This document shows positions 20,646-33,472 of a stretch of 38,546 nucleotides of DNA, in pieces (within the stretch, counting starts at the first letter, position 1; each line of letters begins with the position of its first letter). The position numbers and the translations under genes are program-made. The notes below the pieces were generated by a model. It did not search any database. It saw only the letters and a list, made by a program, of their open reading frames with translations, and was not told where the DNA came from. Origin of the DNA: an uncultured Verrucomicrobiota bacterium. Lineage in GTDB: Bacteria; Verrucomicrobiota; Verrucomicrobiia; Opitutales; Opitutaceae. The DNA lies in the NCBI GenBank assembly GCA_903904685.1, contig CAIVDS010000039.1, positions 1 to 38,546 of the forward strand. Reading direction: 5' to 3'.

Positions 20646-21632
20646 CTAGAATCTGGCGCTTAAGGTCACGCCGACGCCGGCGTTGGCTGCATCGTAGGTG
20701 TAGAGCTGGCTGGTGGAGTTGCGCCAGTCGAAGCTGGTGAAGACGCGGGCGGAAGCCCACGGGGTGAAGTTGTAGCTCACGCTGGCACCGATCGAGCAGG
20801 TGGTGTCACGGCGGTCGACGCTGACAGGACCAAATTCTTCGTAATGGCGGTAGATGGAGCGGGTCACGCTGGCATAGGGCCCGAGAACCCATTTGCCGTG
20901 GAGGTAATAGTAGCCGACGTTGGCGAAGAAATCATACTTATCGTTGCGGTCCTCGCTGATGGTAGGGGTGCTGGCGGTGCCGGCCTTGGTGAAGGCATAG
21001 TCGACGCCGGCGGATACGCTCAGGATCTGATTGGAGGCCAGGCTCACGAGTTTCCGTAATGAGAGGCAGGGAGTATTGGATCGGAAAATGAGATGGTAGT
21101 CGGGCGTGCCGTTGAGCCGGTAGATGGAAGTGGTGGTGAACCCCAAGTTGGCCTCCCAATTGTCGCCAAAACGGAATCCGAGATTGAGCGGCAGGCCATA
21201 GGAATCGAAATCGAGATTTTTACGGACGGAGTCGTTGGTGCCGAGGCCGTGGTTGTAGCGCTGGTAGGTGAAGCCGAGAGACGGGGTGAGCAGGCCGTTG
21301 GCGACCGCCCAGGCAGGGGTTTCGGCGCGAGCGGAAAAAGTGTTGGCAAGAATCACGGTGGCGACCGGATCATGGGGCGTAAGGAAAACGTTGTTGGTGT
21401 AGTAAATCTGCGCGTCATAGGAGACGTATATCTTGATAGGCAGGCTGCGGCGCTGGGCGACCCGCTGGGTGCCGGCGTCCTGATCGCCGCCTTGCGCGGC
21501 GGTCGCAATGGATGCGGCGTTGGGTGCCGCCGGGGCCTTGGGCAACTGGGAGCGGTCGATGACGGATTCGATAGTCTGGGCTTGTGCGGTGCAGGCGACA
21601 AGCAGGAGGGCGGGCAGAAGGAGACGTTTCAT
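20646..21632 (-). CDS. outer-membrane beta-barrel protein downstream of the large FecR gene
   Basis: The 328-residue product has a signal peptide (MKRLLLPALLLVACTAQAQ), a Pro/Ala-rich linker, and then alternating beta-strands typical of a barrel (IYVSYDAQIYYTNNVFL, LGFTYQRYNHGL, ANVGYYYLHGKWVLGPYAS). It ends VGVTLSARF with the C-terminal phenylalanine recognised by the Bam machinery. No porin or transporter subclass is recognised. It starts 27 bases after the stop of the giant FecR protein gene on the same strand, so the two are probably co-expressed as an outer-membrane partner and periplasmic/surface protein. A possible signal-peptide lipobox (LVAC) is a weaker alternative reading. Confidence 0.85.
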   Translation of the reverse strand: MKRLLLPALLLVACTAQAQTIESVIDRSQLPKAPAAPNAASIATAAQGGDQDAGTQRVAQRRSLPIKIYVSYDAQIYYTNNVFLTPHDPVATVILANTFSARAETPAWAVANGLLTPSLGFTYQRYNHGLGTNDSVRKNLDFDSYGLPLNLGFRFGDNWEANLGFTTTSIYRLNGTPDYHLIFRSNTPCLSLRKLVSLASNQILSVSAGVDYAFTKAGTASTPTISEDRNDKYDFFANVGYYYLHGKWVLGPYASVTRSIYRHYEEFGPVSVDRRDTTCSIGASVSYNFTPWASARVFTSFDWRNSTSQLYTYDAANAGVGVTLSARF

Positions 21633-21659
21633 GCGGAGGCTGGACTGGGAAGAGGATGA

Positions 21660-24600
21660 TTAAGGGACGAGGGAAGGCTTTGGAGGGGCGATCACCGGAC
21701 TGGTGAGCGTGCCGAGGTGGATATTGCCACCGTAAGAATCAAAGGTCGCGGTGTTGTTGATGGAGTTGCCGTTATAGCTGACGCCGCTGATGAAATTGAC
21801 GCGGCCAACTGCCGAGGAACCGAAGTGGGGATAGGCACCGGTGCCGGTAGCGCCGTCACTGGTGCCGCCGAGCTTCGAGTTGAGGTAAACACCCGCGCCA
21901 CCGGGGAAATTGATGCTAGTGAGGTTGATGGTGGCGGCCTCCATCGTGATGGTGCGCACGCCGGCCGAGAAGGTGGTGGAGGTGAGGTCGATGAGATTGC
22001 TGGCGCGAAGGGCGAGGTCGCCGCCGCTAGCCACAGTGAAGCTCACGTTGGAATCATTGGTGTCGTCGATGACGAGATACTTGGTCGCGCCGACGTAGAG
22101 ATCACCGGCGGCCTCGAAGGAGACGTTCGTCATGCTTACCTCAGTCTCGCCGTAAGGGAAGAAGTAGCTGCGATCTGTGATGTTGATGGAATTACCGAAG
22201 TGGGAGCCGCTGGCCATGGTTTCGTCGAATCGTTCGGTGGCGGCGCGAAGGCTACCGGACAGTCCAGAGTAGGCGGTGAGCAGGCGGCTCAGGCCGGTGT
22301 GATCGGCGGGGTCGGCCCCGAGGAAGGCGATGTTGCCGTTACCCACGATACCGAGTTCGCGCAGGGTGGATTTTTGGATCGGCCCCAGATCGGTGCTGTA
22401 AAAATCGACGAAAGTTTTGAGATTGGCGAGAGCGGTGGTGATGCCAGTATCATTAGGGGTGTCACCCAAATGGCCTGTTTCGAAGATGGCCTTGGCTCCG
22501 TCGAGATCGAGCAAGGTGGCATACTCATCGGTGGTCAGGCTATTGAGCAGATCATCGATTTGTGCGAGCGAACGGAAGGAGGGTTGGACGGGGGTAATAG
22601 GAATGGTGGATGTGGATGACAGTGAGGTCATGACCGAGGGGCCGGAGGTCGTGGTGCCGAGATACAGCGAGAGGAAGGAATAATTCTTACCCTCGGAGGC
22701 GAGGTAATCGCGAGTGCGAGGCTGCAAGTCTTGATAGGTCGTGATCGTGCTTTGGAGGAGCGGCACATTGAGGGCGGTGCCGAGGATGAAGACGGAGCTG
22801 TCCATGCTATCGAACAATCGCATGTCGCGCACGGACTGCTGGTCGGAACCACTGAGGGAGATGTAGAAGTTGGCGAGTTCAGTGATTCGGTCGCTGATAT
22901 AAATGGGCACCTGACCTGACCCGTAGCCGATGATGTCGCTTGGGGAGTGATAAAGGAGGACGTCGCCGACGCCGAGTGCGCGGACGGCGACTTTTTGGGC
23001 GTCGGTGAGGCCATCATAGAAGGCAAGCGATGTGGATAAAAAGCTAACGAAAACCGCACCCGAGTTGCCATTATTAGAGTAGGCATTGAGCAGGTTGTTC
23101 CTGGCCCCGAGCTGACGCAGAGTGATGAGATCCGTCGCGCTGATGAGAGTGGTATTACCCAAGGCGATAAGGAGGTCTCCGACAGGGTGGCCGTTATTTT
23201 CGCTGGTCAGCAACTCTTGTGGCGCAATGCCGAACTCTTTCAGGAGAGAAATTTGATCTGGGGTATAGCCGCTGATGGTGATGACGGCGGATTGCAGGCT
23301 TAACTTAGTGGGGTTATTGGCGATATCGGCGAGATATTTGCCCCAGCCGGCCTGCACGAGTGCGTTTTGTTCTCCATAGGGCAGGGTGTTAAAGGCGTCG
23401 AGAAGCGCGGAAAGATAACTGGCGCTCCGGTCCATGACGATTTCACCGGCGCCGAGGGAAACAATCTGCTGTTTTTGCAGAAAGGTGAGAGCGTCGGAGG
23501 CGGTGCTGTTCCACATGGCCGAGGCGCGGGCAAAGGCGGACGCGCTCCATTGGGCCGGGTCGGGAGCGTTGTCGATATTGGGAAGACCGGTTCCTCCGCT
23601 GGTGGGGCCCGTGGTAATGGCGGCGGTGGTGATTGTGATGGCTCCGGCCAGTTCCTTAAAAAGGGCGTAACTGGCGGGGTCGTTGTTCTTGAGCGCGATG
23701 AGTGGTATGAGGTGGCGGATGATATCGGCGTTGGTAAGAGGCAGGCCGGTGTCGACAGACGGAGTCAAAGCGACGGTGGTGATATCGGGATCGTTGAGCT
23801 CATTGATCGCATCCTGAGCGTCGGCGGAGAGGCTTGTGAAAATTGCCAGTTGTTCGGCCGTGAGGTTGGGCGGGATGGTGACACCGGAGGCGGTGATGAT
23901 CTCCGTGGTGTCCTTATTGGTGGTTGTCGTGGTGTCTGTTCCTGTGCCGGTCTTGGTTTCGGGTTGTTGCGAAATCAAGTTCTCAACGCGTTGCTGCAGT
24001 TCAGCTGGGACGGAGATGCCGAGGCTTTTTGCAGTGTCGAGCGCGTTGGACAAGGCGGTAGACTGGAGTTTGATGCCGGATTCGACCGCCTCGGAGAGGG
24101 TTTCAAGAGTGGTTTTGACCCATTTTGCCGCAAGGGCCTGATCTGCGGGGGAGAGATCGCTGACCTTGCCGCCATGCTCGGTCGTGCCACCGGGTTGGGT
24201 GATGGATACCTGGCCGATGGTGAGGGAAACTTGGCGGCCATCGGCGAGGCTGAGCGTGATGGTGCCATGCGAGACGATGATGGTCTGGATGCCGGCCTCG
24301 TTGAGGCCGACGGTGAACGTGGTACCGCGTGCGCCGGCGAGGCCGCGAGGTGTGCGGATGCTGTAATCGTAGGTGACGCCTTCCTGTTTTTGGAGATCAG
24401 AGACGACGGCCCCGACCTTGAGGTTGAGGGTGGCCTGATGCGTGACTTCGGTGGGCGAGGGATGGGAATCGGAGGCGCTTTCCAGAACGATGGTGGTGTT
24501 GGGCGCAATCATGGACTTGACGCCGGGCATCGGGGTGAGGACGACGCGACCGTCTGGGCCGGTGGTAATGCGTGTGCCGATGATGACGGACTCGCCCTTC

Positions 24601-24743
24601 TGCGCGGGGTGGGCGGCGGCTTCGTCGGGGCGTTGTAATTCGGCGTGGCCGCTTACGAAAATAACGCGCACTGTTTGCGCGGACAGATCGAGGCTTAATA
24701 AAAAAGCGAGACCGATGATTGAAAAACAAGTATGAAGTCTCAT
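21660..24743 (-). CDS. giant exported FecR-domain protein with helical repeats and a beta-rich C-terminus
   Basis: The 1027-residue protein has a signal peptide (1-22) and a FecR domain (about 25-180: ESVIIGTRITTGPDGRVVL, IRTPRGLAGARGTTFTVG). A Thr-rich linker follows (about 262-282). The central region (about 290-845) contains degenerate helical repeats of the type F/Y-x-x-L-x-x-x-Q-x-x-x-L-R-x-L-G, for example near 449, 489, 536, 574, 780 and 822. The C-terminal 180 residues are Ser/Thr/Asn-rich beta-strands (ITMEAATINLTSINFPGG) resembling haemagglutinin-type passengers. Classic FecR proteins relay TonB-receptor signals to sigma factors, but no sigma factor is here. Instead the gene diverges from a CHASE2 cyclase gene with eight bases between the annotated starts, and the barrel gene follows it. 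Confidence 0.88.
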   Translation of the reverse strand: MRLHTCFSIIGLAFLLSLDLSAQTVRVIFVSGHAELQRPDEAAAHPAQKGESVIIGTRITTGPDGRVVLTPMPGVKSMIAPNTTIVLESASDSHPSPTEVTHQATLNLKVGAVVSDLQKQEGVTYDYSIRTPRGLAGARGTTFTVGLNEAGIQTIIVSHGTITLSLADGRQVSLTIGQVSITQPGGTTEHGGKVSDLSPADQALAAKWVKTTLETLSEAVESGIKLQSTALSNALDTAKSLGISVPAELQQRVENLISQQPETKTGTGTDTTTTTNKDTTEIITASGVTIPPNLTAEQLAIFTSLSADAQDAINELNDPDITTVALTPSVDTGLPLTNADIIRHLIPLIALKNNDPASYALFKELAGAITITTAAITTGPTSGGTGLPNIDNAPDPAQWSASAFARASAMWNSTASDALTFLQKQQIVSLGAGEIVMDRSASYLSALLDAFNTLPYGEQNALVQAGWGKYLADIANNPTKLSLQSAVITISGYTPDQISLLKEFGIAPQELLTSENNGHPVGDLLIALGNTTLISATDLITLRQLGARNNLLNAYSNNGNSGAVFVSFLSTSLAFYDGLTDAQKVAVRALGVGDVLLYHSPSDIIGYGSGQVPIYISDRITELANFYISLSGSDQQSVRDMRLFDSMDSSVFILGTALNVPLLQSTITTYQDLQPRTRDYLASEGKNYSFLSLYLGTTTSGPSVMTSLSSTSTIPITPVQPSFRSLAQIDDLLNSLTTDEYATLLDLDGAKAIFETGHLGDTPNDTGITTALANLKTFVDFYSTDLGPIQKSTLRELGIVGNGNIAFLGADPADHTGLSRLLTAYSGLSGSLRAATERFDETMASGSHFGNSINITDRSYFFPYGETEVSMTNVSFEAAGDLYVGATKYLVIDDTNDSNVSFTVASGGDLALRASNLIDLTSTTFSAGVRTITMEAATINLTSINFPGGAGVYLNSKLGGTSDGATGTGAYPHFGSSAVGRVNFISGVSYNGNSINNTATFDSYGGNIHLGTLTSPVIAPPKPSLVP

Positions 24744-24751
24744 AAATCCTA

Positions 24752-27058
24752 GTGGCCAACCGATTGATTTGGCGTTTTGACAGGAGAGCTCCTACTCCCT
24801 TGAGCCATCTATACGCAAAACATTTAAGAGACATTCCCCTTTCATGGCGCTGGCGGTTGGGGGTGACGCTTTTGCTCGGACTCGGTCTTGGTTTGGCGAG
24901 CAATTTCCCTCCCCTGCGGCGATTGGAGTGGTTGGCGGAAGATTTGCGTTTACGGCTGCGGGCGCGAGTGGACACGCCTCCGCCCACCGGGAAAATAGTC
25001 CTGCTGGCGATCGATGAGAAGTCGCTTGCAACTCAGGGGCAGTGGCCGTTTACGCGGTCGGTGCATGGTCAGATCATGGAGTGGCTGGGCAAGGCCCCGG
25101 AGGTGAGGCCGGCAGTGATAAGCTGGGACTTTGTTTTCACGGAGGAGACTTATAATCCCGAACTCGACCAGATGTTTTCCGAGCCGCTGGCCAAAGCGGG
25201 TTATCCCATCGTCATGGGGGCATTTTCAACGGTCGCCGCCAAGGGTATCTGGACTCAGGGAAGGCCGGCTCCGCGATTGGGGTTGACCAAGTCGCTTGTG
25301 CTGTCCCCAGCGATGCTCGCGGTGCTGCCGGACTATGGCATCCAGATTCCAATCGTGCCATTGCTGGATGTGACGCGTTTTGCGCTGCTTGACGCCGATG
25401 CCGACGAGGATGGCGTGGTGCGCAAAGTCCCGCTGATGGTGCGCACGGGTGATCGGGTTTTCCCGAGTTTGGTGCTGCAAACGTTGCTTGCCTACTGGAG
25501 GGTCGGGCCCGAGGCGGTGGAGGTGCAGTTGGGGGACGCGGTGATCGTGCGGACTGCGGAGGGGGAGCGACGCGTGCCTGTTGATGAACGGGGATGCTAT
25601 CGCGTAAACTACCGCTATGAGCTGCCCAGCAAGGCATTTCCCGTGGGAATCGAAGCGGTGTCCTATCAGGATACCTATGACGCGCTGGCGCCTTGGGCCT
25701 TGTTCGGCGACAAGAGGCCGGAAATGCCCGTGGCGGGGAAGATCGTGCTCGTGGGTGAAACCGCCGTGGGATTGACCGACATAGGGCCCAGTCCGCTGCG
25801 GGGCGAAAGCCCCAAGGTTCTCGTGCATCTCAACGCGCTCGAGAACATCCTGCGCGGCGATTATCTGCGCTCTGTTCCTTTATGGCCGGGACTGATGGTT
25901 CTGCTGCTGGCGGGCGTGGGAGCGTCGTGGGTGCTCGATCGTTATCAGTTTCGCGTCTATCTGGTGGTCGCGCCGGCTTTGCTCGTCGTGGCAATCACGG
26001 GAGCTTATTTCGCACTGCAACTGGGCAATTTCATGATTCCGCTGGCGACGCCTCTGGTGGCGTTCAATTTGCAGCAGGCGGTGGTGGCGGTCTTGAAAAT
26101 TCGTGAGGAGCAGGCCCAGCGGGAGCGCATCCGGCGGATGTTCGGCGCCTACGTGTCGCCAGAACTCGTGCGGCGCATGGTCGAGGCGCGGGCCGAGCCC
26201 CAGTTGGGCGGACACGAGGACGAGATCACGGCATTCTTCAGCGATATTCAGGGATTCTCGGCGTTTTCCGAGGTGCTGACGCCTGTCGATTTGGTCGAGT
26301 TGCTCAACGAATACCTGGGTGCGATGACCGACATCCTGCAGGAGCGGGGCGGAGCACTCGACAAATACATCGGCGACGCGATCGTCGCGATGTTCGGCGG
26401 GTTGGTGCCGTTGGCGGACCATGCGCGCAAGGCCTGCGAGACGGCGGCGCGCATGCAGTTGCGGCAGGCCGAGCTCCGGACGCAGTGGCAGGCCCAGGGC
26501 GACCGCTGGCCGCCACTCGTCCATGCGATGCGCATGCGCATCGGCCTCAACTCCGGCCGCGTGGTCGTCGGCAACATGGGTTCCAGGCACCGTTTCAACT
26601 ATACGATGATGGGCGATGTGGTGAACCTCGCGGCGCGTTGCGAGAGCGGGGCGAAGCCCTTCGGCGTCTACACGCTCGTGACCGAGGAAACGGTCAAGGC
26701 AGCGCAGGCGGCGGGCTGCGCCTGCGTGTTCCGTGCGCTGGACCGCATCGTGGTGAAAGGGCGAACTCTGCCGGTGGAGGTTTACGAGCTCACCGCGTTG
26801 TCGCCGGCGCATCTGCCGGAAGGCGGAGCACGGTGCCTTGAACTGTTTGCGGCGGGCCGTGCGCACTATCTCAGGCAGGAATGGGCTGAGGCGATGCGCT
26901 GCTTCGAGGAGGCCGCGCCGCTGGAACCGTTGCAACCGGAGCGGGACGCCGGCGTGGAGAAAAATCCGTCGCTGCTGATGCGGGACCGTTGCGAAAAACT
27001 GCAGGCGCATCCTCCGGGCGCGGATTGGGACGGCGTTTACCGGATGACTTCCAAATGA
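24752..27058 (+). CDS. CHASE2-domain class III adenylate/guanylate cyclase
   Basis: In 768-residue numbering the protein has membrane segment 36-50, a periplasmic CHASE2 domain (about 55-372), further membrane segments about 378-395, 400-423 and possibly 427-446, and a class III cyclase domain (about 488-670). Catalytic residues are intact: metal aspartates D498 (FSDIQGF) and D542 (YIGDAIVAMFGG), base-selecting K538 and D622 (MMGDVVN), and transition-state N625/R629. The Lys/Asp pair favours ATP, hence cAMP. A short TPR-like tail follows. The GTG at 24752 is the most upstream start. A TTG at 24800 preceded by AGGAG is also plausible and would leave more room for promoters of the divergent FecR gene. 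The stop overlaps the next gene's start (ATGA). Confidence 0.9.
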   Translation: MANRLIWRFDRRAPTPLSHLYAKHLRDIPLSWRWRLGVTLLLGLGLGLASNFPPLRRLEWLAEDLRLRLRARVDTPPPTGKIVLLAIDEKSLATQGQWPFTRSVHGQIMEWLGKAPEVRPAVISWDFVFTEETYNPELDQMFSEPLAKAGYPIVMGAFSTVAAKGIWTQGRPAPRLGLTKSLVLSPAMLAVLPDYGIQIPIVPLLDVTRFALLDADADEDGVVRKVPLMVRTGDRVFPSLVLQTLLAYWRVGPEAVEVQLGDAVIVRTAEGERRVPVDERGCYRVNYRYELPSKAFPVGIEAVSYQDTYDALAPWALFGDKRPEMPVAGKIVLVGETAVGLTDIGPSPLRGESPKVLVHLNALENILRGDYLRSVPLWPGLMVLLLAGVGASWVLDRYQFRVYLVVAPALLVVAITGAYFALQLGNFMIPLATPLVAFNLQQAVVAVLKIREEQAQRERIRRMFGAYVSPELVRRMVEARAEPQLGGHEDEITAFFSDIQGFSAFSEVLTPVDLVELLNEYLGAMTDILQERGGALDKYIGDAIVAMFGGLVPLADHARKACETAARMQLRQAELRTQWQAQGDRWPPLVHAMRMRIGLNSGRVVVGNMGSRHRFNYTMMGDVVNLAARCESGAKPFGVYTLVTEETVKAAQAAGCACVFRALDRIVVKGRTLPVEVYELTALSPAHLPEGGARCLELFAAGRAHYLRQEWAEAMRCFEEAAPLEPLQPERDAGVEKNPSLLMRDRCEKLQAHPPGADWDGVYRMTSK

Positions 27059-27822
27059 AGATGAGTGTTAAACGCGGGCTTGAAATTGCCGTGCTGGGGG
27101 TGATTTTTTTTGCAGGTGCTGAGGCGAGTTTTGCAGGGACGATGACAATCGGTTTTTCCCAGGGTCAGGTGCTGTTGCGCGAGGCGGACGGAGGGAAAAT
27201 CCAGTTCGCCCGCAAGGGCCGTTCGATTACCGAGGGCGAAACGGTGGTCACCGGCGAGAACGCATTGGCCGAGGTGCGGCCGTCGGCTGGCTTGTGGCGG
27301 CTGGGACGGCGTGCGGTGTTTGCTCCGGGTGCAGACGGCGGCGGGCGGTTGCTCGCGGGGACCGCGTTGGCGGTCGTTCCGACGGGATTGATCTGGCGCG
27401 TGGAAAGCAGTCGCGGCCTGGTGGCCTTGGGCGCGGGCACGTGGATTTTGCAGGCGGTGGACAACGAGGGGCTGAAGTTGATCTGCCTCGACGGACCAGC
27501 CGAGGCGGTTGCGCTTGGAGAGGTCAAGGCCCCCGCGTCCGCACCGATGCGCCGGGTGAAGTTGCGACCGGGCGAACTGGTGTTCCTGTTGCCGGAGGGA
27601 AAGGTGTTCGGTCCGGTGGTGACGATTTTCCTGCAGGAGCTGTTTGCGACCAGCCGGCTGGTGCTGGATTTTCCCGAAGAACTGCCGTCGGCGCGGCGTA
27701 TTAAAAATCTGGCGACCGCTCAGGCGGATCAACTCAAAGGGGTGACCAACGCGCTGGTGGGTGGAGCGGAGGACGCCAAGGGTTTCCAACTCGTGGTGCC
27801 CAAGGCCGACAAAAAGAAATAA
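27055..27822 (+). CDS. small exported FecR-like protein coupled to the cyclase
   Basis: The 255-residue protein has a signal peptide (about 1-27, LEIAVLGVIFFAGAEASFA) and a FecR-like beta domain: IGFSQGQVLLREADGGKIQ, RSITEGETVVTGENALAEV, then LIWRVESSRGLVALGAGTW. A final helical segment precedes a Lys-rich end (PKADKKK). It lacks the long repeats of the divergent FecR protein. Its ATG overlaps the cyclase stop as ATGA, indicating translational coupling, so it is very likely a periplasmic partner of the CHASE2 domain. An ATG six bases later is also possible. It converges with the M16 gene, leaving nine bases and no visible terminator. Confidence 0.75.
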   Translation: MKMSVKRGLEIAVLGVIFFAGAEASFAGTMTIGFSQGQVLLREADGGKIQFARKGRSITEGETVVTGENALAEVRPSAGLWRLGRRAVFAPGADGGGRLLAGTALAVVPTGLIWRVESSRGLVALGAGTWILQAVDNEGLKLICLDGPAEAVALGEVKAPASAPMRRVKLRPGELVFLLPEGKVFGPVVTIFLQELFATSRLVLDFPEELPSARRIKNLATAQADQLKGVTNALVGGAEDAKGFQLVVPKADKKK

Positions 27823-27831
27823 TGGCAGAGC

Positions 27832-29160
27832 TTACTTTGCCGACGTCGGCATGGTGCCGGCCTTGATGAGCACCATGTTTTCCGGATTGAGGCGCTTCTT
27901 GATGACGGCGTTGACCTCGGCGAGCGTCACGGCGTCGAGTTTTTGCGGATACTCGTCGAGCCAAGTGGGGTCATAGCCGCGGTGCACGGCGGCGAGAAGC
28001 GCGCTGGCGAGGCCGTCGGTGGTGGCGAGGCTCACCTTGAAGCTGCCGGAGAGATTCGTCTTGGTGCGCGCCAATTCGGCGGCGGTGACGCCCTGTTCAT
28101 ACCAGAGTTTCAACTCGCGCCGGGTGGACGCGAGGCCCTGTTCGAGCAGCGCGGGGGCGAAATTGGCGATGATGCGCCAGTCGCCGTCGGCGAAGGTGTC
28201 GTTGGCGAGCCTGGATCCGATGCCGTAGGTGAGACCTTCCTTGTCGCGTACGGTGGCCATGAGGCGGCCGGTGAAACCGCTGCCGAGGACGGTGGTGGCG
28301 ACTCGCAGCGGAATAGTGTCGGCATCCGTATACTTCAGGCCGGTGGTCTGGCCGATGATCACGCTGACGTTGGGCTTGTCGGGCATGAACACGCCTTGAT
28401 CGCGATCGGCGTCGGTGGGCGTAGCCTTGGAATAGACGGTCTTGGCAACACCGCCGGTCCAGCCGGCGAAGGTCTTGGCGATTTCGGTCTTAAGGCCGTC
28501 GATGTCGAGATCGCCCACGGCGACGACGGTGAAATCGGCGGGTCCGTAATACTTGGCGTGGAAGGCGCGCAGATCGGCGATGGTGGCGGTGTCGAGCGCG
28601 GCGAGGAACGCCTCGGTCGAGGGCGTGTAGTTGGGATGTCCGGGCGGATAGATCGCCTCGGAGAAGGTTTGGCTGGCGCGATAGCTGGTGCTTTCGAGGG
28701 CGCGCTTGAGTCCGCCCGCGATCTGCTTCTTGAGCTTGGCAAATTCCTCCTCGGAGAAGGCGGGCGAGCGGAGTTGCTCGGCGAGCAGTCCGATGACCAG
28801 CGGCACGTCTTTGCGCAGGCATTTGCCGCTGAACACGACCATCGTGCTGTCCACAGAGAAGGTGAGTTCGGCGCCGACGGCGTCGAGTTTTTGCGCGATG
28901 GCGAATTTGTCCTCGGTGGTCGTTCCCTTGTCCAGCATGCCGCCGACGAGGGTGGGGATGGCGAGGTTATTGGCGGGCGCGAAGCTGTCGCCGGCGGGGA
29001 GCGAACCGCGGAAGGTGACGACGTCGCGCACGCCGGTCTTGTAGGCGATGACGTCGATGCCTGCGATGCGGTTGCGGACGACGTTGGCGGCGATTTGGGC
29101 GTGGGCGATGGTCGCTGCCAAGCTCGCGGCAACGAAAAGGAGAACGCGGGGAAATTTCAT
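27832..29160 (-). CDS. M16 family peptidase-like subunit lacking the zinc motif
   Basis: The 442-residue exported protein (signal peptide about 1-21) has the two-lobed M16/insulinase fold. It has no HxxEH: the expected site reads LAIPTLVGGMLDKG (66-79). The second lobe keeps the conserved GSGFTGRLMATVRDKEGLTYG segment, including R299 and Y312, which in two-subunit M16B proteases are supplied by the non-catalytic subunit to help bind substrate. It starts 12 bases after the stop of the catalytic M16 gene, so the two probably form a heterodimeric periplasmic peptidase. Confidence 0.93.
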   Translation of the reverse strand: MKFPRVLLFVAASLAATIAHAQIAANVVRNRIAGIDVIAYKTGVRDVVTFRGSLPAGDSFAPANNLAIPTLVGGMLDKGTTTEDKFAIAQKLDAVGAELTFSVDSTMVVFSGKCLRKDVPLVIGLLAEQLRSPAFSEEEFAKLKKQIAGGLKRALESTSYRASQTFSEAIYPPGHPNYTPSTEAFLAALDTATIADLRAFHAKYYGPADFTVVAVGDLDIDGLKTEIAKTFAGWTGGVAKTVYSKATPTDADRDQGVFMPDKPNVSVIIGQTTGLKYTDADTIPLRVATTVLGSGFTGRLMATVRDKEGLTYGIGSRLANDTFADGDWRIIANFAPALLEQGLASTRRELKLWYEQGVTAAELARTKTNLSGSFKVSLATTDGLASALLAAVHRGYDPTWLDEYPQKLDAVTLAEVNAVIKKRLNPENMVLIKAGTMPTSAK

Positions 29161-29172
29161 GGCGAAAGCGGC

Positions 29173-30588
29173 TTATTTGGTGATGGGGCCGGGGGCGGTG
29201 ATCGGCATCGGGCGGGGAGCGGGCGAACCATCCGGTGGCAACACGGGGATGAACCATCCGGTGGTGCTTTGATCCTCGTCGAAATAGGTGTTGGCCACGC
29301 GCTTCACGTCATCGGCCGTGACCTTCTTGATGGCCTCGTCGATTGAGACGTAGAGCGTCCAATCGCCGACCGCGATGTATTCATTGAGGTTGCTGGCGAT
29401 TGCGAAAGCGCCGTCGCGGGCGTAGGCCGAGGCGGAAATCAACTGGTTGACGGCGGAGGAGATTTCCGTGGCGGTGACGCCGTCTTTTTTCAGGCTCTCG
29501 ACCTCGCTCATGATCGTCATTTCAACCGGCATGTGTTTCGCGCCGGGGGCGAGGCTCGCGTAGATGATGGCGAGCGAAGGATCGTGGAAGAAACCGACGT
29601 CGGCGCTCACGCTGGTGGTAAGGTTTTTGTCGGTGAGGGCGCGGTAGAGCCGGCTGTTTTTGCCAGAGGTGAGGACGGCTCCGAGAACCTGGAGGGCGGC
29701 GGTATCGGCATGGCGGCCGGAGGGGGTTTTGTAGGCGATGCCGACGACGCCGAGTTGGCCGGCGCGTTTCACGGTGACGCGGCGCGGGCCGCTTTGCGCC
29801 GGCTCCTCGGTGTAGACCTGCGGGATGGGGGCGGGAGCCTTGGGGATGGCGCCGTAGTATTTTTTGACGAGGGCGAGGGCGGCGGCGGGCTCGACGTCGC
29901 CGATGATGGTGACGGTGGCGTTGTCGGGCCAGTAGAAGGTGTCGTAGAACTGCTTCAGCTTTTCGATGGGCACGTTCTCGATGTCGCTGCGCCAGCCGAT
30001 GGTGGAGTGGTGGTAGGGATGGGCGACGTAGGCGGCGGCGGAGATTTCCTTGTCGAGCGCTTGGATGGGGTTGTTCTCGCCGATCTCGAATTCGTTGCGG
30101 ACGACGGTCATCTCGGGGCGGCGGTCGGACTCGCGCAGCCAGAGGTTGCGCATGCGGTCCGCCTCAATGGCGATGTAGTCCTCAAGGTGCTCCTTGCCGA
30201 GGTTGGCGAAGTAGTTGGTGCGGTCGAGCCAGGTGGTGGCGTTGTAAACCGCGCCGACGCGTTCAAGGAGTTGATCGACGCTGTTGCCCTTGGCGCGGTT
30301 GAACTCGGGAGTCCCCTTGAACATCAGGTGTTCGAGCAGGTGGGTCGCGCCGGTGACGCCGAGGCCTTCGTTGCGCGAGCCGACGCGGTAGGTGACCATA
30401 AAGGTGACCACGGGCGCGGAATGCTCGGGCAGGACGAGGACTTGGAGGCCGTTGGCATCGAGGGTGTATTCGGAGATGCCACCGAGGGTTTTGACGTAGG
30501 TGAAGCCGGCGGCTGGTACGGGCGTGTCGGCGGCGTAAAGCCCGAGGGCGGAGAGCAGCGCAAGACTGAACAAGAGGCGGAGTTTCAT
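29173..30588 (-). CDS. M16 family zinc peptidase, catalytic subunit
   Basis: The 471-residue exported protein (signal peptide about 1-20) has the inverted zinc motif HLLEH (83-87) in GATHLLEHLMFKGT, and a downstream IEADRMRNL segment that supplies the third ligand (about E142). Family enzymes degrade peptides and signal-peptide fragments inside a closed chamber. It is first in a two-gene minus-strand operon with the inactive M16 subunit 12 bases downstream. It diverges from the glucosidase gene over 127 bases, in which no clear promoter was found. Confidence 0.95.
   Translation of the reverse strand: MKLRLLFSLALLSALGLYAADTPVPAAGFTYVKTLGGISEYTLDANGLQVLVLPEHSAPVVTFMVTYRVGSRNEGLGVTGATHLLEHLMFKGTPEFNRAKGNSVDQLLERVGAVYNATTWLDRTNYFANLGKEHLEDYIAIEADRMRNLWLRESDRRPEMTVVRNEFEIGENNPIQALDKEISAAAYVAHPYHHSTIGWRSDIENVPIEKLKQFYDTFYWPDNATVTIIGDVEPAAALALVKKYYGAIPKAPAPIPQVYTEEPAQSGPRRVTVKRAGQLGVVGIAYKTPSGRHADTAALQVLGAVLTSGKNSRLYRALTDKNLTTSVSADVGFFHDPSLAIIYASLAPGAKHMPVEMTIMSEVESLKKDGVTATEISSAVNQLISASAYARDGAFAIASNLNEYIAVGDWTLYVSIDEAIKKVTADDVKRVANTYFDEDQSTTGWFIPVLPPDGSPAPRPMPITAPGPITK

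Positions 30589-30715: not shown

Positions 30716-33472
<2,757 letters not shown>

Follow-up and report, generated by a model that had tools for sequence, protein, structure and literature searches.

FecR-domain proteins beside a CHASE2 cyclase suggest a split trans-envelope receptor in Verrucomicrobiota

What CHASE2 senses is stated to be unknown in the accessible portions of two papers (PMC5192318, PMC10581220), the second of which also speaks of CHASE2 diguanylate cyclases in Verrucomicrobiota. The question bears on contig CAIVDS010000039.1 of an uncultured bacterium of the Opitutaceae (assembly GCA_903904685.1), analysed here over a stretch of 38,546 nucleotides that we call the window. 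In it, a gene for a CHASE2 cyclase is flanked by genes for an outer-membrane barrel and two FecR-like proteins, and we asked whether these could supply the cyclase with its signal. The features on which the argument draws are the following.

20646 to 21632, minus strand: outer-membrane beta-barrel protein of 328 aa, weak in Pfam, encoded at the second position of the leftward operon
21660 to 24743, minus strand: FecR-domain protein of 1027 aa (the giant), PF04773 at 32.7 bits
21693 to 22166, minus strand: C-terminal beta-rich module of the giant, about residues 860-1017
22239 to 24149, minus strand: mostly helical middle of the giant, about residues 199-835, from an AF2 model (mean pLDDT 56) and alignment
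24261 to 24572, minus strand: FecR domain of the 1027-aa protein, by Pfam
24744 to 24800, no strand: short spacer between the two divergent operons, assuming a cyclase start at TTG 24801
24752 to 27058, plus strand: membrane-bound class III nucleotide cyclase with CHASE2; the frame opens at GTG 24752, with TTG 24801 as the likelier start
24887 to 25918, plus strand: CHASE2 domain of the cyclase (2.4e-42)
26216 to 26788, plus strand: catalytic domain of the cyclase, with conserved D, K, D, T, N and R
27055 to 27058, plus strand: ATGA stop/start overlap of the cyclase and the small FecR-like gene, read from the sequence
27055 to 27822, plus strand: small FecR-like protein of 255 aa with a signal-peptide-like N-end, assigned by phmmer kinship and a family alignment

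Re-reading of the frames placed all four genes where the sequence-only reading had put them and found the ATGA coupling of the cyclase and small-protein genes at 27055-27058. The same reading had left almost no spacer between the two operons. That claim depends on a start at GTG 24752, which leaves 8 bases; relatives' cyclases begin closer to the first membrane segment, so TTG 24801 is the likelier start and the spacer is probably about 57 bases. After the small FecR-like gene come two adjacent M16 peptidase genes on the opposite strand (27832-30588(-)), and the window also holds a glycoside-hydrolase-like gene at 30716-33472.

The absence of a conserved neighbourhood had been named beforehand as the first half of the outcome that would overturn a functional link, and linkage across related genomes proved strong. 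The small protein has matches in 31 of 252 family genomes, 18 of them strong and 13 weak (44-52 bits), and orthologous cyclase matches of at least 670 bits occur in 17 of the same 18 genomes; G481, the one left over, has its cyclase in two pieces on separate contigs (55% and 75% identity). Outside these 18, no family genome has a cyclase that exceeds 603 bits (46% identity), in a match list that is complete for the genomes having a match. The barrel family is found in 19 of the 252 genomes and is strong in 14 of the 18 that carry the small protein and the orthologous cyclase; one barrel search over named genomes found two loci. In all 14 of the strong-barrel genomes the barrel and giant FecR genes share one strand and the cyclase is divergent, with the small gene following the cyclase in 13 (one copy is cut by the contig end) and the contig stopping before that point in the fourteenth. 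The contigs of the four set genomes without a barrel match end inside the cyclase (three) or inside the giant FecR gene (one), so there is no clear counter-example, but the family barrel search found no barrel elsewhere in these four. Two genomes of the same genus, G472 (77% complete) and G479, have no small-protein or barrel match and carry only the other cyclase type, at 42-43% identity. The complete genome of IMCC26134 holds the full four-gene set.

The coupling is kept as well. At all 13 loci whose contig includes the cyclase stop, that stop overlaps the small gene, as ATGA in 11 and GTGA in two. A FastTree phylogeny of 85 cyclases, in which some branches are long, puts the divergent four-gene layout in a single clade of 13 rows with support 100, and the layouts as a whole cluster on the tree, requiring 16 changes against 52.9 in label shuffles. 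In view of the expected counts, the shuffles and the co-occurrence in the same 18 genomes, we reject chance adjacency of the genes.

The association of FecR with CHASE2 extends across the phylum. In a sample of 288 genomes, CHASE2 occurs in 104, FecR in 109 and both in 77, a co-occurrence above independence with an odds ratio of 13.5, uncorrected for kinship; FecR at E<=0.001 is absent from 27 of the 104 CHASE2 genomes, by a match list complete for genomes having a match. A FecR gene lies within about 7 kb of CHASE2 at 50 of 82 loci, where FecR density predicts about 1.3. The model behind this count was seeded with Pfam hits of the same loci and the expectation derives from Pfam counts, so the count by the same standard is 46 of 82, the number of neighbouring FecR proteins that pass the Pfam FecR model at E<=0.001. 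The 82 loci comprise all 39 CHASE2 matches of the family together with 9 from the order, 16 from the class and 18 from the phylum taken from a longer list. A few class and phylum loci were chosen after FecR hits were known, so the 39 family loci are the fair sample, and for the family taken whole FecR lies near 28 of 39 CHASE2 loci against 0.9 expected. In a search with the window's cyclase at 1e-10, four of the 82 loci went unmatched. Where the cyclase was mapped (49 loci), the gap between it and FecR is at most 1215 bases, and within 500 in 44. Seven additional loci outside the 82 (L160-L166) gave FecR in three.

No FecR was found near CHASE2 at 32 of the 82 loci, a count that includes the second cyclase of the window's own genome. 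The FecR tally may be low: the genome of L076 has a FecR hit, and a 302-aa gene precedes its cyclase. Given these 32 loci and the 27 genomes without a detected FecR, CHASE2 is not always in need of FecR. The second cyclase of the window's genome (L006:8825-11056(-)) has no FecR found nearby, and members of the clade nearest to it mostly have FecR directly downstream. Contig C72, which is just 5.9 kb long, and contig C56 of this genome carry two further FecR genes, and no CHASE2 was found on either.

The position of FecR relative to the cyclase varies. It may be downstream, upstream (often with a Wzy_C-related gene), divergent (in some cases with a barrel) or part of a fused chain. In three Verrucomicrobiota loci (L096, L098 and L099) FecR, TPR and a match to a TonB-receptor-type barrel occur in one protein just before the cyclase. 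At L158:3161-10786(-), a 1434-aa FecR protein, a barrel and a CHASE2 cyclase are consecutive on one strand; the FecR domain at this locus is recognised by the model built on the window's small protein (41 bits) and missed by the giant's model. A relative of the Wzy_C (O-antigen-ligase-like) TPR gene of L066 is present at 18 of the 82 CHASE2 loci (L042, L044, L051, L053, L055, L061, L066, L068, L070, L072, L076-L082 and L084), 14 of them with FecR. Judging from gene content, with Pfam run on two of the 18, these loci may be another kind of FecR-CHASE2 arrangement, tied to surface polysaccharide.

What the individual proteins look like bears on how they might cooperate. The assignment of the first gene to an outer-membrane barrel holds insofar as it belongs to a conserved family whose window member ends in F, as read from the sequence; its Pfam matches stay under their cut-offs (20.9 bits against 28.7 for OMP_b-brl, PF13505, and 14.2 against 275 for EpsL), and Pfam gave no TonB-receptor match. 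The description of its neighbour as a 1027-residue FecR-domain protein is borne out by Pfam, at 32.7 bits over a cut-off of 24. This giant consists of a signal-peptide-like N-end, the FecR domain, a long middle predicted to be helical and a C-terminal beta module, and its one hydrophobic segment lies at the N-end. Its orthologues range from about 580 to 1569 aa. Both ends are conserved among them, the FecR domain at one and the C-terminal module at the other, while the middle varies in length. The beta-rich module is present in 14 of 14 orthologue frames, occurs in three copies in the giant of Verrucomicrobia bacterium IMCC26134 (L127:5180-9889(+)) and finds weak part matches (19-28 bits) near the C-ends of the FecR proteins of L052, L065 and L067, each of which is followed by a barrel match.

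The AF2 model of the giant, built on a 3-sequence alignment (mean pLDDT 56), is usable for the helical middle as secondary structure only, and a fold search with it returned no Foldseek match at E<=0.001. Polo-box matches of the model, up to Z 8.3, were discounted, since the stretch concerned (about 136-225) lies partly under pLDDT 50. Pfam found no TPR match in the giant. Short helical repeats, one to seven each, were detected in 13 of 14 giant frames and not in that of L040, a suggestive result from a model seeded by eye on the window's giant itself.

The 255-aa protein had been introduced as a small FecR. What survives of this is distant kinship: phmmer connects it with FecR proteins encoded next to other CHASE2 cyclases (E 1e-5 and 7e-5), and Pfam gave no match at all, FecR included, as it gave no FecR match in the homologues from L060 and L126. 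A type-B FecR model was built from proteins that it then found, and the phmmer result is the independent evidence of kinship. AF2 yielded a mean pLDDT of 46 from a 3-sequence alignment. Besides the hydrophobic segment at its N-end the protein has a second, weaker one at 175-194, so it may be anchored.

The cyclase is the best defined of the four proteins, and its description as a CHASE2 enzyme with intact catalytic residues is upheld. Both domains exceed their Pfam cut-offs (143 bits for CHASE2, cut-off 26.3; 86 bits for Guanylate_cyc), and an under-cut-off TPR_2 stretch lies at the C-end. D, K, D, T, N and R, to which we assign the metal, substrate and transition-state roles known from class III cyclases, are identical in 14 of 14 aligned Verrucomicrobiota cyclases (the window's, 12 of the same layout and that of L158); at one catalytic position the S. 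meliloti cyclase in the alignment has S in place of T. By sequence, the best solved relatives of the catalytic domain are adenylate cyclases, and the K and T residues would suggest ATP as substrate; the product is most likely cAMP. In the window's genome the search found two cyclic-nucleotide-binding proteins, neither CRP-like by Pfam, so that no CRP-like cAMP receptor was found among them. One (L172:440-2437(-)) has 665 aa and two such domains; the other (L173:5627-7558(+)) has 643 aa, three cyclic-nucleotide-binding stretches and ferredoxin (iron-sulphur) domains, and its gene adjoins one for an FAD/NAD oxidoreductase.

On balance we favour, with some confidence, the view that the four genes encode one trans-envelope receptor controlling the synthesis of a cyclic nucleotide, most likely cAMP. 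Gene content, the stop/start overlap, conserved linkage, co-occurrence and the catalytic residues are observed; from them we infer topology, contacts, the direction of signalling and cAMP as product. The barrel would sit in the outer membrane. The giant would be exported and couple to it, probably through the C-terminal beta module, while its helical middle would reach into the periplasm; in this arrangement the C-terminal module would face the barrel and the FecR end would face CHASE2. There both the giant, by way of its FecR domain, and the small FecR-like protein would meet the periplasmic CHASE2 domain, the small protein being the likeliest close partner, as its gene overlaps that of the cyclase. 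Barrel and giant would sense a signal or state at the outer membrane, and the contact between FecR and CHASE2 would change with it, and so would the activity of the cyclase in the cytoplasm. The sequence-only reading had FecR proteins hand the ligand or mechanical state on to CHASE2; such direct presentation may occur, but the CHASE2 loci and genomes in which no FecR was found, together with the poor structure models, call for caution. A giant of about 580-1569 aa is odd for a fixed bridge and speaks against the receptor; a length that varies so much is easier to reconcile with an arm that is exposed or flexible. Also against the receptor count the CHASE2 loci and genomes with no FecR found, the barrel's score below the Pfam cut-off, the small protein's lack of a Pfam match, the weak barrel score of the Sinorhizobium protein discussed next, the poor models and the failure to find a CRP-like cAMP receptor in the genome.

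For a path from the outer membrane to CHASE2 cyclases there is a published precedent. In S. meliloti the passage of outside signals to the CHASE2 cyclases CyaK and CyaD1/D2 depends on the outer-membrane barrel protein NsrA, whose barrel lies at residues 600-1200, according to the accessible parts of the reports (PMC7529298, PMC13001267, PMC10463352). On pSymB we found a 1219-aa protein in which FecR (57 bits) is followed by TPR and, in the last part, where the NsrA barrel would be expected, by a weak barrel match (12.3 bits, cut-off 27); the stop of its gene overlaps the start of a CHASE2 cyclase gene, and the FecR and CHASE2 matches are each the only one on the replicon. This protein is probably NsrA or a protein like it. 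Both systems place FecR and a barrel or barrel-like region next to a CHASE2 cyclase, pSymB in a single protein, the window in two genes, one for the FecR protein and one for the barrel, which both point away from the cyclase. A single chain of FecR, helical repeats and barrel is absent from the window and present in L096, L098 and L099; the window has an additional small FecR-like protein, no TPR match in its giant and no CRP-like receptor found in its genome. Its operon order, FecR protein then barrel, is the order within the fused FecR-TPR-barrel chain. The window's set looks like a split counterpart of the single FecR-TPR-barrel protein that Sinorhizobium seems to have, and we read the common order as a sign of shared function and not of direct descent. 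Three further plasmids with a cyclase match covering CHASE2 have FecR next to or near the cyclase in three of three; they were chosen among 40 of 606 records with a cyclase match, one of them because its FecR matched the giant.

Clustering of FecR with a CHASE2 cyclase is already known: in Campylobacterota a CHASE2 adenylate cyclase is clustered with a FecR-domain outer membrane protein (PMC9239204, in the part available). That cluster contains a phosphodiesterase and a TPR protein where the window has a gene for a barrel and another FecR-like protein; Pfam found no phosphodiesterase or TPR gene over cut-off among the four window proteins and six neighbours. In the Burkholderia BiofilmReg operon, as far as the accessible text goes, a LysM-FecR protein is paired with a CHASE2 histidine kinase (PMC5192318). 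Like the window, it sets FecR with a predicted signal peptide beside a CHASE2 sensor, there in one operon; unlike the window, it uses a kinase and response regulator in place of a cyclase, includes LysM, and no barrel is mentioned in that portion of the paper. Our literature search, with most subscription journals outside its reach, found no account of the four-gene set in Verrucomicrobiota. The kind of system is known, and its split form with two FecR-like proteins appears to be new.

Other explanations fit part of these data. The two operons might share only a regulatory region, with barrel and giant as targets of the cAMP pathway, such as a surface structure or adhesin, and not as its sensor. 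The divergent arrangement across some 57 bases would suit this, as would a giant that varies in length and has its end module triplicated in one relative, in the manner of surface proteins, and the accessible literature on S. meliloti treats the FecR-domain gene smc02177 as a target of Clr (cAMP). We nevertheless think it unlikely: against it stand the placement of FecR upstream of, downstream of or divergent to CHASE2 cyclases depending on the clade, the succession of FecR, barrel and cyclase on one strand at L158, and the small FecR-like gene, which overlaps the end of the cyclase gene at each of 13 loci. The trans-envelope receptor itself is compatible with a further proposal that differs in the signal, namely that FecR domains sense cell wall or surface polysaccharide, the module monitors the state of the envelope and the barrel takes part in a polysaccharide pathway. 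The Wzy_C-related gene at 18 of 82 CHASE2 loci (14 with FecR), glycosyltransferases beside L041, the weak EpsL match of the barrel with a BBP2_2 match in a relative, and the Burkholderia LysM-FecR protein paired with a CHASE2 kinase (PMC5192318, accessible part) all lean this way. The EpsL and BBP2_2 matches are, however, all under cut-off, and the scanned neighbours in the window include no polysaccharide gene except the glycoside-hydrolase-like one at 30716-33472; we consider this version rather improbable.

Least probable by a wide measure is that FecR acts here in the iron-citrate style, as the anti-sigma partner of a sigma factor encoded far away. Iron-citrate signalling through FecIRA combines a FecR domain with an outer-membrane partner. 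The window shares both with FecIRA, and the genome has seven Sigma70_r2 places with which an anti-sigma FecR might act; none of the seven is on the window's contig, and no ECF sigma gene adjoins FecR. The window further differs from FecIRA in lacking a TonB-receptor match on its barrel, and Pfam found neither an anti-sigma domain beside FecR nor the cytoplasmic anti-sigma part expected of an inner-membrane FecR; the sole hydrophobic segment of the giant is at its N-end. The earlier expectation that FecR works here in some way other than that of iron-citrate signalling is therefore supported, and with no sigma gene on the contig and no anti-sigma domain we reject the anti-sigma explanation.

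If the trans-envelope receptor is correct, its meaning may reach beyond this locus. FecR genes beside CHASE2 cyclases throughout the phylum, with barrels in several clades, make FecR a candidate CHASE2 partner. We put forward tentatively, and with less assurance than the receptor itself, that a large class of CHASE2 sensors has FecR-domain proteins as periplasmic partners and in effect as ligands, that outer-membrane barrels signal to CHASE2 through FecR, and that the Verrucomicrobiota family has a split receptor with two FecR modules, one a length-variable arm that may reach the surface and the other bound to the cyclase. The question of what CHASE2 senses thereby becomes testable with small soluble proteins, and the four-gene set may link a receptor of plant symbiosis to bacteria outside symbiosis.
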